The translations under genes were made by a program, and so were the position numbers. Below, in pieces: positions 59,394-62,350 of a stretch of DNA of 64,000 nucleotides. The DNA comes from Microgenomates group bacterium (GTDB taxonomy: Bacteria > Patescibacteriota > Microgenomatia > UBA1406 > GWC2-37-13), in the NCBI GenBank assembly GCA_029906985.1, contig JARYMT010000002.1:124001-188000 (forward strand), in the 5' to 3' direction. Numbering within the stretch: the first letter of the stretch is position 1; every line of letters begins with the position of its first letter. The notes below the pieces were generated by a model. The model had not been told where the DNA came from. It worked only from the letters and a program-made list of their open reading frames with translations, and did no database searches.

Positions 59394-60050
59394 ATGAAAA
59401 AATTTCTGATCTTTTTGTTATTGATTGCCGGTTATTTGTCATCGGCCAACAGCGTCATTGCTCAATACGGCGCTTATGAAGGCGGAACTCCTTCTCAGGA
59501 TATTTTAGTAGATAAATTAGTGGGGAAAATCACCTCTTTTACCAAAGGCGGCGTTGCTCAAATTGTCTATGTTGATAATCTATCTGCCGGTGATAAAAGG
59601 TTTTCTCCCGGCCAAGACATTATGTTTAAAATTAAAGTAAAAAACATTTCTTCCAAAAAGATTAACAATGTGATTGTCGATGATTTTGTCCCCTCGTACG
59701 TCACGCCAATCGAGGGCCCCGGTTCTTTTGATGAAGCCACCAGAAGAATTAGTTTTAATGCCGGTGACTTTGATCCCGATCAAACCAAAGAATTTACCAT
59801 AAAAATGAGAGCATTACCTTTAAGCGATTTACCCGCTGATCAGTCGATCTTCTGTCCAACCAATAAAGTAAGAGCCACTGGTGAAACTTCAGCTGATGAA
59901 GATACGTCTCAATTTTGCATTGAAAAATTTGTAGCTGCCGGTGTAAGTACTGTTCCTTCAGCCGGACCTGAATTTGGAATCATTCTTCTTTCAGGCGAGG
60001 TTTTGGCTTTAGGAACAGGAATCTATCTTAGAAAGAGTTCCTCAAAATAA
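59394..60050 (+). CDS. Secreted surface protein with DUF11-like domain and C-terminal anchor
   Basis: A signal peptide (residues 1-23, cut after VIA) leads to a beta-sandwich DUF11-like domain (FSPGQDIMFKIKVKNISSKKI, VDDFVP, FNAGDFDPDQTKEFTIK). The C-terminus PSAGPEFGIILL and a helix ending RKSSSK resembles a sortase-like or other C-terminal anchor; similar PxTGPE endings occur in candidate phyla. It is likely exposed on the cell surface. Confidence 0.75.
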   Translation: MKKFLIFLLLIAGYLSSANSVIAQYGAYEGGTPSQDILVDKLVGKITSFTKGGVAQIVYVDNLSAGDKRFSPGQDIMFKIKVKNISSKKINNVIVDDFVPSYVTPIEGPGSFDEATRRISFNAGDFDPDQTKEFTIKMRALPLSDLPADQSIFCPTNKVRATGETSADEDTSQFCIEKFVAAGVSTVPSAGPEFGIILLSGEVLALGTGIYLRKSSSK

Positions 60051-60264
60051 CAAATTAATAATAAATCTCTACTAACAAGTCTATAAACCATAGTCAACAA
60101 AATATTAAATATAGATTGTTAAACCAACTAAATAATTATGATATACCAAAGTTTCAGGTTTGAAGTTCTACTCTCCACCCCTTATATCTTATAGCTTCAC
60201 TTTTTGAGTTTGTGTGTCTGTCATGTGGATAAAAATATCTGGATTGTCGAAGCCTTAACTATAG
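60051..60264. other. AT-rich upstream region of the ncRNA
   Basis: No gene or repeat is evident. The region leads into the ncRNA promoter at 60265. Confidence 0.4.
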
Positions 60265-60293
60265 TTGAAATGTATCATTCCATTTGATATACT
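60265..60293 (+). promoter_or_regulatory. Promoter for the large structured RNA
   Basis: TTGAAA (60265-60270), 17 bp, TATACT (60288-60293) with an upstream TGA that makes it an extended -10. The predicted start is at about 60297, exactly where the first stem of the RNA begins. Confidence 0.7.
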
Positions 60294-60296
60294 ATA

Positions 60297-60803
60297 GGGC
60301 ATATGTTTAAGAAACGAAACATATGCCAATCTCGAAGGGTTCCGTATTACAAATACCCAAAAATTAGGGGTCGCTTAACGACCTTTGATTCTTGGGCTTT
60401 TTTATAGCCTAAGATAATTGTTTCGTCCCGGGCGGGGACCAGCTTCCCGCCTAGAGGCGGGACAATATAACTAGTCCCCGCCCCCATGGGTTTTTCAAAA
60501 AAATGGGGAAAGGGAAAAGTGTTGAGGGGAAGCTTGTTTTAAGCAAAGCTTGCCAACTCGACGCACTTTAATAAAATGGGTATAGACATCTTAAGTCCGA
60601 AACGGACCGGATCAGCTCTGGTCCGGAAAAGATAAAAGGATGTCTATTTTAGTCTGAAATGACTAAATCAGGTTACTTAGGGCAAAGGCCATATGGGCAA
60701 AGCGGTTGAAAAATCATGGCGCCTCCTAAAGCTAACCTCCTTTCTTTCCGAAAAATAACACTAATGTCATCTGAACTTGTTTCAGGATCTAAATGGTGTT
60801 ATT
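60297..60803 (+). ncRNA. Candidate large structured non-coding RNA (~500 nt)
   Basis: No reading frame is present, but helices are dense. GGCATATGTTT/AAACATATGCC (60298-60308/60317-60327) is an 11-bp 5' hairpin. GGTCG/CGACC is near 60369, and TCTTGGGC/GCCTAAGA near 60390. GGGCGGGGAC/GTCCCCGCCC encloses CCCGCCT/AGGCGGG (60430-60484). AGACATC/GATGTCT encloses GTCCG/CGGAC and CCGGATCAG/CTGGTCCGG (60583-60644). TTTAGTC/GACTAAA is near 60650, GGTTA..TTAGG/CCTAA..TAACC around 60671-60737, and AATAACACTA/TGGTGTTATT (60754-60763/60794-60803). No RNase P, tmRNA, SRP or 6S signature was found. Confidence 0.6.
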
Positions 60804-60852
60804 GAGTAGGGAAAGATTGGTACTTGCACTTTGGAACTAAGAGAATTTGACG

Positions 60853-60875
60853 CTGGAAACTAGAGGCTTGAGGTT
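60853..60875. repeat. Left word repeat of the four-helix-bundle cassette
   Basis: CTGGAAACTAGAGGCTTGAG and three more bases. Segments GCTTGAGG and AGAGGCT are found inverted at 61302-61309 and 61280-61286. Confidence 0.55.
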
Positions 60876-60904
60876 AAAAAAACAATATTTGTTATTATTT
60901 ATTT

Positions 60905-61267
60905 ATGATAAAATCATTTCGTGATCTTGAAGTCTATCAAGAAAGCTACAAATTAATGATTTTAATCCATAAAAAAATAAAAGAATTTCCAATTTATGAA
61001 AAAATGGATCTAACTTCACAAATGAGACGAGGATCAAAATCTATTCCAGCAAATATCGCTGAAGGTTGGGCAAAAAGAAATCATGAAAAAGAATTTAAAA
61101 AACATCTCAATATAGCAATAGGATCAGCTAACGAAATGGAAGTACACATAGAAACAGCTAGAGATCTTAATTATTTAAACAAAGATTTTGCAGAAGATGT
61201 CCTTAAAAGATACAATATTTTAGGTAGAAAATTATTTAAATTAAGACAAAATTGGAAATCTTTCTAG
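60905..61267 (+). CDS. Four-helix-bundle protein (23S rRNA intervening-sequence family)
   Basis: 120 residues with FRDLEVYQESYKLMILIHKK, LTSQMRRGSKSIPANIAEGW and NIAIGSANEMEVHIETARDL, the signature of the S23/IVP four-helix bundle. The family is found in intervening sequences of 23S rRNA and, in candidate phyla, as single-gene units; bAvd, the DGR accessory protein, shares the fold. No reverse transcriptase is here. Short inverted words flank the gene. Confidence 0.9.
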   Translation: MIKSFRDLEVYQESYKLMILIHKKIKEFPIYEKMDLTSQMRRGSKSIPANIAEGWAKRNHEKEFKKHLNIAIGSANEMEVHIETARDLNYLNKDFAEDVLKRYNILGRKLFKLRQNWKSF

Positions 61268-61316
61268 CTTCAAGCATCCAGCCTCTTAATCAAACTTCCG
61301 GCCTCAAGCATCAAGT
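61262..61316. repeat. Right word repeat of the four-helix-bundle cassette
   Basis: Words CTAGCTTCAAGC, AGCCTCT, CTTCCGG, CCTCAAGC, related in inverse orientation to the left repeat. Confidence 0.55.
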
Positions 61317-61365
61317 GTCACTCTCTTGCTTAGTTTCAGAGAGCAAGTGCCAAATCTAATTGAAA

Positions 61366-61475
61366 GGAGGCGAAAAGAAAAGGGGCAACCTTGCGACAAT
61401 CGTGTCGCGCCCTCCAACCCTAATCCGGTTGGTTAACCACAATAGTGGAAGAGGGAGAAAATCCATAATCTCGGG
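61366..61475 (+). promoter_or_regulatory. Structured leader of the lipoprotein gene
   Basis: Hairpins GCGACA-ATCG-TGTCGC (61393-61408), CCAACC-7nt-GGTTGG (61414-61432) and CCAC-AATA-GTGG (61437-61448) occur in order, ahead of the GGGAGGAAG ribosome-binding site. The GC content is above that of nearby intergenic DNA. Confidence 0.5.
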
Positions 61476-61484
61476 AGGAAGAAA

Positions 61485-62174
61485 ATGAGACACCAAAGAA
61501 TCAAACAAGTAACAATGTGCATCACAATGATTCTGTTGATGGCGTCGGCCTCGGCCTGCAGCGGTGTGATAGCGCTGCCGGAAGGTATGACAGTAAATGG
61601 AACAGCAATTCCTGCAGGGGAATATGCTGTATCAATCACGAAAGCGGAGACGTCCGCACCGACCCAAACGGCAACATCGACCGACACGCCAACGCCGACC
61701 ATTCCGCCAACGCCCGCCCCGACGGCCACACCGACGCCGACCAACACGCCGACGGCCACGCCGATGCCAACAGGCATACCGACCATCCGGACGACGCCGA
61801 CCGCGCCCGCCGCGCCGACCACAACCACGCCATTGTCCTACACATCGACTGCCGCACCCGTATCCGCATGTGTAGTCATTCATGACTACCAACTAAAAGA
61901 TCTGCCGGAAGTTGCTACGTCAAGCGGCAACTACCTCCATGTGGAATACTGGATCGGTGGCTCTTTTCCAGAGTATGAAACCATCCTGCCGGGTGGCCGA
62001 TACCTTCTGAAAATCAATTTTTCAGGAGGTCACGTCTGGGAATACGCAGGCTGTACCTTTGATCAGGTATTTGAACAGGTCAAAGCCCACATAGGACGCC
62101 GATTGGCTCAAAACGCCAACAACGGTGGTTACGTGTACTGGGAGGCTACGGGGTTCTTTAAGCCTGTTCGGTAA
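61485..62174 (+). CDS. GC-rich lipoprotein with Thr/Pro-repeat linker, probable foreign origin
   Basis: The signal segment MTMILLMASASACSG-like (CITMILLMASASAC) suggests a lipobox Cys. A 75-residue linker of TPT, TPTP and TNTPTATP repeats follows, then a C-terminal domain (VEYWIGGSFPEYETILPGGRY, HVWEYAGCTFDQVFEQVK). The base composition is far more GC-rich than the window and codons end in C/G. Such Thr/Pro linkers are common in Chloroflexota and other wall-bearing bacteria. A strong GGAGG ribosome-binding site is present. Function is unknown. Confidence 0.75.
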   Translation: MRHQRIKQVTMCITMILLMASASACSGVIALPEGMTVNGTAIPAGEYAVSITKAETSAPTQTATSTDTPTPTIPPTPAPTATPTPTNTPTATPMPTGIPTIRTTPTAPAAPTTTTPLSYTSTAAPVSACVVIHDYQLKDLPEVATSSGNYLHVEYWIGGSFPEYETILPGGRYLLKINFSGGHVWEYAGCTFDQVFEQVKAHIGRRLAQNANNGGYVYWEATGFFKPVR

Positions 62175-62195
62175 CCTGACCCTAATAATCGAAAG

Positions 62196-62306
62196 GGGGA
62201 GACTTCAACCGAAAGGTTGATTTGATAAGCTATTTTCGAAATCCTACCAATCTTTGGTAGGCTCGTCGCCAAAAGCGACTAGAAAATAAGCTTATCTATA
62301 CTCCCC
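62196..62306 (+). ncRNA. Structured leader element with multiway junction
   Basis: An outer stem GGGGAG/CTCCCC (62196-62201/62301-62306) encloses hairpin CAACC-GAAA-GGTTG (62206-62219) and a 13-bp helix with one bulge (GATAAGC-T-ATTTTC at 62224-62237 with 62282-62296). That helix encloses CCTACC/GGTAGG (62243-62261) and GTCGC/GCGAC (62265-62279). All helices are nested without conflict. It has the look of a riboswitch aptamer but matches no class I know. Confidence 0.6.
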
Positions 62307-62350
62307 TTCATTCTTAAGCTAACAAATATTCTTGTTGGCTGAAGAATGAA
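62307..62350 (+). promoter_or_regulatory. Start-codon-sequestering hairpin
   Basis: TTCATTCTT (62307-62315) pairs perfectly with AAGAATGAA (62342-62350), and inside it AGC/GCT and AACAA/TTGTT extend to 17 bp with two 1x1 mismatches. The ATG of the GT2 gene (62346) is inside the 3' arm, so initiation is blocked while the hairpin stands. Confidence 0.65.

Follow-up and report, generated by a model that had tools for sequence, protein, structure and literature searches.

The RNA that begins near position 60298 of the window, the whole stretch of 64,000 nucleotides that was analysed, belongs to an uncultured Roizmanbacteria lineage and is probably a giant 5' leader of the mRNA for a secreted protein (61485-62174), in which ribosome-coupled attenuation would be followed by Nus-factor antitermination. 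What points to a giant mRNA leader is the position between promoter and ORF, a leader ORF lying over a terminator, a boxA, and loci in which promoter and ORF occur together without the RNA. A preliminary description of 60265-60803 as a large structured RNA driven by a promoter of its own is upheld, with covariation and no Rfam match, while its stand-alone reading in the style of GOLLD, ROOL and OLE is no longer the best explanation. The RNA family is new, and the parts of its mechanism are of known kinds newly combined. The features of the locus are given below.

59394-60050, + strand: syntenic upstream gene for a secreted protein with DUF11, present in 55 of the 72 family genomes
60258-60293, + strand: promoter with conserved ACTATAGTTGA, the same promoter in the syntenic place in many genera
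60298-60327, + strand: 5' hairpin H1 of 11 bp, GGCATATGTTT/AAACATATGCC
60303-60407, + strand: leader ORF of 34 codons, MFKKRNICQSRRVPYYKYPKIRGRLTTFDSWAFL, with an ORF starting at the corresponding position in almost every relative
60356-60403, + strand: intrinsic terminator or attenuator, a hairpin (60356-60396) followed by a U tract (60398-60403, six U)
60391-60414, + strand: hairpin H3, from the fold and read off the alignment
60420-60429, + strand: invariant GUUUCGUCCC, whose complement lies in the loop and 3' arm of H1
60430-60484, + strand: conserved GC-rich stem GGCGGGGAC...GUCCCCGCC with an inner CCGCC/GGCGG hairpin
60563-60579, + strand: boxA, GCACTTTAATAAAATGG, an rRNA-type antitermination sequence (1 match, 0.02 expected)
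60582-60647, + strand: helix after boxA, ATAGACATC.../GATGTCTAT, with inner hairpins (helices 3-5, with covariation)
60648-60668, + strand: covarying hairpin TTTTAGTC/GACTAAAT before CAGGTTA (helix 6, 5 of 7 pairs changed on both sides)
60736-60744, + strand: CCTCCTTTC, complementary to GAAAGGAGG at 61362-61370, the complementarity being kept
60750-60803 (start approximate), + strand: REP-like palindrome of the CTGAACTTGTTTCAG type inside the RNA, with many copies in family genomes
60817-60843 (approximate limits), + strand: 5' arm of the 3' hairpin, GATTGGTACTTGCACTTTGGAACTAAG
60844-61328 (approximate limits), + strand: insertion with an S23 four-helix-bundle ORF at 60905-61267 (PF05635, E 8.6e-31)
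61329-61356 (approximate limits), + strand: 3' arm of the 3' hairpin, CTTAGTTTCAGAGAGCAAGTGCCAAATC
61362-61370, + strand: Shine-Dalgarno-like GAAAGGAGG, which can pair with 60736-60744
61485-62174, + strand: GC-rich ORF (GC 0.55) for a secreted protein with a Thr/Pro linker, the proposed target
62193-62345, + strand: second structured element, after the ORF (z -7.67)

A DNA search of the 72 genomes of the window's family returned relatives of 65-77% identity in several of them and shorter matches elsewhere, and the RNA is kept at a single syntenic locus in at least 4 genera of one Roizmanbacteria family. The relatives are flanked on one side by the secreted DUF11 gene and on the other by a gene block for a glycosyltransferase, a large membrane protein and an ATPase; these shared flanking genes indicate that the RNA was inherited with its locus and is no wandering element. 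Searches of phage, plasmid and IMG/VR viral contig collections gave no match for the RNA, and an origin from such sources was rejected. When about 85,000 species genomes were scanned with a pattern, 20 stretches came up, 11 of them being the family's own relatives (under the labels Roizmanbacteria, Microgenomates or 'bacterium'). The pattern matches in GTDB genomes other than Roizmanbacteria were set aside, their number being close to the chance expectation and L067, the only one of them that was read, containing no further part of the RNA.

The promoter reads TTGAAA-17-TATACT with TG before the -10 (10 of 12 matches), the -35 lying at 60265-60270 and the extended -10 at 60288-60293. Both the strong extended -10 promoter and the 11-bp hairpin at the start site that the preliminary description had reported are present, the former being kept in relatives and the latter, H1, coinciding with a transcription start predicted from the sequence at about 60297-60299. 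The first 30 nt of the RNA are conserved in the alignment of relatives, and the H1 loop reads GGGACG in relatives and GAAACG in the window. The minimum free energy of 60298-60810 is -189.4 kcal/mol vs -134 +/- 6.3 kcal/mol in shuffles, none of which, out of 100, folded as well (z -8.74). The reverse strand of this region also folds strongly (z -6.8); since perfect hairpins fold well on both strands, covariation was tested in addition, and the rich structure claimed earlier is borne out by both lines of evidence. The end formerly set at 60803 has to be moved, the last hairpin there being the REP-like palindrome and the conserved RNA extending to about 61370.

Collection of homologues and a covariation analysis, as the preliminary description had proposed, revealed compensatory changes in two domains. 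In the 5' domain (8 sequences), 13 of 47 pairs were changed on both sides, with 27 cells vs 10.7 in shuffles (0 of 500), and in the middle domain (7 sequences) this held for 18 of 37 pairs, with 27 cells vs 11.3. Sliding the partners by 1-3 columns removed most of the covariation signal. The H1 loop likely pairs with GUUUCGUCCC, possibly as a pseudoknot, as judged by their complementarity; covariation is uninformative for this pairing because the positions hardly vary, and in the window 2 of the 6 loop pairs are A-C mismatches. Searched with a covariance model of the GC-rich stem, the order's 83 genomes gave matches in 13, every one within the window's family. The core thus evolves fast, and the promoter, boxA and GC-rich ORF persist beyond its range; across relatives, promoter, leader ORF, terminator and boxA keep a fixed order.

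The region had been described as holding no frame and its stems simply as those of a structured RNA. Both statements require correction, since a 34-codon ORF opens at 60303 and one of the stems (60356-60396) is an intrinsic terminator. The ORF is nearly leaderless, its ATG lying about 5 nt past the predicted start site, and it reads across the first big stem and through the terminator. The latter has a folding energy of -20.9 kcal/mol (1 of 40 shuffles as good). Among 19 loci, 15 (the window and 14 of 18 relatives) have a hairpin with U tract between +71 and +121 that no more than 1 of 40 shuffles equals. Its stem is supported by changes on both sides in 10 of 17 pairs in the aligned set (helix 2). 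The full forms of H3 and of the terminator are mutually exclusive, as H3 uses the terminator's 3' arm. Leader ORFs are 16-46 codons long in most loci and longer in L047 and L137. In all 15 scored loci, which are related and hence no independent trials but span several genera and differ widely in sequence, the stop codon lies in the apical loop (7), in the 3' arm (3) or past the hairpin (5) and never earlier; L120 was scored with a hand-chosen short hairpin and L051 was left out. The median length of the leader frame is 28 codons vs 15 and 1 in the other two frames, which mostly close before the loop.

As read from the sequence, this layout is the anatomy of a ribosome-coupled attenuator, with a conserved intrinsic terminator between promoter and gene and a short ORF overlapping that terminator. 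Attenuators of the pyrBI type are ribosome-coupled and have a leader peptide over a terminator. The window resembles them in its short ORF just past the start site and in the translation that would cross the terminator hairpin, but differs in that the ORF is nearly leaderless, the target is a secreted protein and more than 1 kb of RNA follows. Ribosomes that stop at or near an intrinsic terminator repress termination (PMC4824070), and this precedent, together with the frequency of the terminator and the position of the stops, supports the leader model. The model is weakened by the loci that depart from the scheme, the terminator search having yielded no hairpin in L050, L111 and L120 and a weak one in L137 (6 of 40 shuffles as good). 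It is also weakened by the absence of the leader ORF in L111, by a leader peptide that is not strictly conserved and by the inspected peptides, which share no common codon run and contain none pointing to a sensed amino acid. A peptide motif IT(T/I)AR or a near variant does recur in several loci. L048 and L051 read the conserved GGGACG in another frame, which implies that the RNA sequence itself is constrained as well.

The motif GCACUUUAAUAAAAUGG at 60563 is the boxA of this organism: 28 of 30 16S leaders in the family match it, mostly 60-165 nt ahead of the 16S. The pattern GCWCYTTDAHAANNDGG has six matches in the window's 953-kb genome, three of which lie inside protein-coding genes, and the only three non-coding matches are before the 16S, between tRNA-Ala and the 23S, and in the RNA studied; the regular expression was written after the RNA had been seen, and the 16S-leader and whole-genome tests were made later. 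This restriction to rRNA leaders and the RNA, along with the NusB and Rho genes encoded in the same genome, supports the leader model, as do the more than 10 genera whose syntenic locus has boxA and, within roughly the next 200-1,200 nt, a GC-rich ORF encoding a secreted or membrane protein, and the lack of an intervening terminator-like site, none being listed on the + strand from 60415 to the end of the ORF. A point against the model is that an AAGUG upstream is able to pair with the first bases of boxA and so might mask it. The 16S (C9:17819, L156) and 23S (C11, L206) are on separate contigs, each with its own boxA; this genome may have a split rRNA operon.

In bacterial rrn leaders, boxA serves NusB-S10-SuhB antitermination (PMC4807359, PMC10250234). 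It is also found in the mRNA leaders of suhB and other genes, with a gamma-proteobacterial consensus GYTCTTTAANA (PMC5725501), and boxA elements precede long non-coding RNA and CRISPR arrays (PMC7862264, which cites Stringer et al. for the arrays). The RNA shares with rrn leaders a boxA like that of the organism's 16S and 23S leaders and a long untranslated RNA behind it, but a leader ORF and a terminator come before its boxA, which is reached only after about 265 nt, and a protein gene follows in place of rRNA. With the suhB-type leaders and CRISPR arrays it has in common a boxA outside rRNA operons; among these we know of no structured leader of some 1 kb that also has a leader ORF and a terminator.

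In the 3' part, relatives have a further hairpin in common, TTGGCTTGCACTTTG.../CTTCAGAGTGCAAGTCA, followed by AAAGGAGG. In the window this hairpin is split by about 485 nt carrying the S23 ORF, and it is found without that insertion in L005-L007. L111 has a different, probably broken S23-like ORF (2149-2355) in the corresponding hairpin, with inverted copies of a TAGAACTTGGAAC-type repeat on either side, and inside the RNA of other relatives there are coiled-coil or small membrane ORFs. A small membrane-protein ORF is inserted antisense at different places within the RNA in L049 (3938-4138) and L050 (4631-4822), on the minus strand, both of genus g2. S23 ORFs occur in hairpins of 23S rRNA (PMC4990558) and, in CPR, in insertions of 16S and 23S rRNA (PMC11270868). 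The insertion at 60844-61328 is like such 23S rRNA intervening sequences in that a large structured RNA holds an S23 ORF within one of its hairpins, but the host here is no rRNA, the window having no rRNA match and the genome's 16S and 23S lying elsewhere, and the window and L111 hold different S23-like ORFs in the corresponding place. In every locus GGAGG could pair with the CCTCC upstream; when this closing helix was examined for covariation, the arms of one genome paired no better than arms swapped between genomes, which counts against the model.

The proposed target ORF gave no Pfam match. GC-rich ORFs behind boxA mostly have a GC of 0.53-0.64 vs a mean of 0.39 over all fetched loci, and the third-position GC of 61485-62174 is 0.58 vs 0.30 for the long genes of the window. 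Codon bias of highly expressed genes is not supported as the source of this GC, as a nearby L28-like ribosomal ORF (L040) has a GC of 0.35. The target ORF is very variable, and C-terminal regions are alike across genera (L111, L122 and L133; L120 with L134), which suggests repeated exchange or import at the locus. In some genera of the window's family that are without the RNA (L115 and L126), this promoter, at the syntenic locus, stands directly ahead of a secreted-protein ORF, in further support of the leader model. The element at 62193-62345 shares 87.5% identity with L111, and compensating changes are seen between the two. It is possibly a separate regulatory RNA, and the start codon of the glycosyltransferase lies next to its last hairpin.

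According to the leader model, RNA polymerase would start at about 60298 on the strong extended -10 promoter and a ribosome would load on the nearly leaderless ORF at 60303. Were translation to keep up, the ribosome would cover the 5' arm of the 60356-60396 hairpin and transcription would continue, as in pyrBI; were it to lag, the hairpin would form and most transcripts would end near 60403. Polymerase that has passed the terminator would then enter the long untranslated folded region with boxA at 60563, where NusB and S10 might bind as on pre-rRNA and keep the polymerase Rho-resistant up to the translated gene. As boxA lies downstream of the attenuator, it would be unable to act on it. The folded RNA would end near the Shine-Dalgarno-like GGAGG, whose pairing with the CCTCC about 620 nt upstream may conceivably gate translation. 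The elements, their positions, conservation and covariation are observed; that they regulate, in answer to a signal and in a given direction, is inferred.

Identification with known RNAs was pursued with Rfam, as had been proposed. No match was obtained at the gathering score, and at relaxed thresholds the best E-values (0.29-0.46) were all far under the families' gathering scores, so that no known class was recognised, GOLLD, ROOL and OLE included. The earlier view that the RNA is neither RNase P RNA nor tmRNA agrees with these searches: the tmRNA identity was rejected for want of an RF00023 match, the genome's tmRNA lying elsewhere, and RNase P RNA of types A and B for want of a match to RF00010 or RF00011 even at the relaxed threshold. 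A very divergent RNase P RNA was considered because RF00010 detects no RNase P RNA in any of 18 family genomes (11 of 14 control genomes being positive) and RF00011 is unmatched in the window's genome; the family's RNase P RNA is either very divergent or missing. The failure of every RNase P model, the ORFs inserted inside the RNA in relatives, and two further genomes (G009 and G010) that lack an RNase P match and also any DNA match to the RNA make this identity extremely improbable. A stand-alone large ornate RNA, a folded particle tagged for antitermination like pre-rRNA and adjacent to the secreted-protein gene by position only, deserves more weight and is still rather unlikely. Size, many stems and the lack of a long frame recall GOLLD, ROOL and OLE, and the strong fold with covariation, the near-invariant GUUUCGUCCC and GC stem, a possible long-range pseudoknot, a boxA typical of long untranslated RNA and peripheral loops that tolerate insertions, as in rRNA, would all suit such a particle. 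It differs from those classes, however, in its lack of an Rfam match, its leader position ahead of a gene, its boxA and its leader ORF. An ORF over a terminator would be unexpected there, no terminator-like site separates the RNA from the target ORF, and the core evolves fast, its GC stem being detected in few genomes of the order while promoter, boxA and GC-rich ORF persist elsewhere.

The remaining readings take only part of the locus as functional. If the product were the 5' RNA of about 105 nt ending at the terminator, as a small RNA or a leader-peptide mRNA, with the remainder being occasional readthrough, the conservation of the promoter, of the terminator and of the first 30 nt would be accounted for, but the covarying stems downstream, boxA and the GC-rich ORF would be left unexplained, and this possibility is held to be very unlikely. 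About as little credence is given to an insertion-prone spacer in which palindromic elements (REP, S23 and coiled-coil ORFs) fold strongly and do little: REP-like palindromes and inserted ORFs in many relatives and the folding of both strands fit it, yet compensatory changes keep the stems paired and promoter, leader ORF, terminator and boxA stand in set order.

The giant leader, if correctly recognised, unites two known controls, leader-peptide attenuation and an rRNA antitermination tag, within a single leader, roughly 1 kb long, of a gene whose secreted product evolves fast, and the RNA is a host for S23 insertions outside rRNA. A broader reading, on which the family would be a new class of large folded RNA in Patescibacteria with an rRNA-like programme (strong promoter, rRNA boxA, S23-type loop insertions) and a folded function of its own besides the control of a hypervariable surface protein, is put forward tentatively and with considerable doubt. 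The loci provide a defined sequence set for work on boxA and attenuation in Patescibacteria, a group in which very little RNA regulation has been studied. If the leader model is true, transcription of rRNA grade would have been put to use for an mRNA, and these tiny bacteria would couple the expression of a surface protein to their translation capacity.
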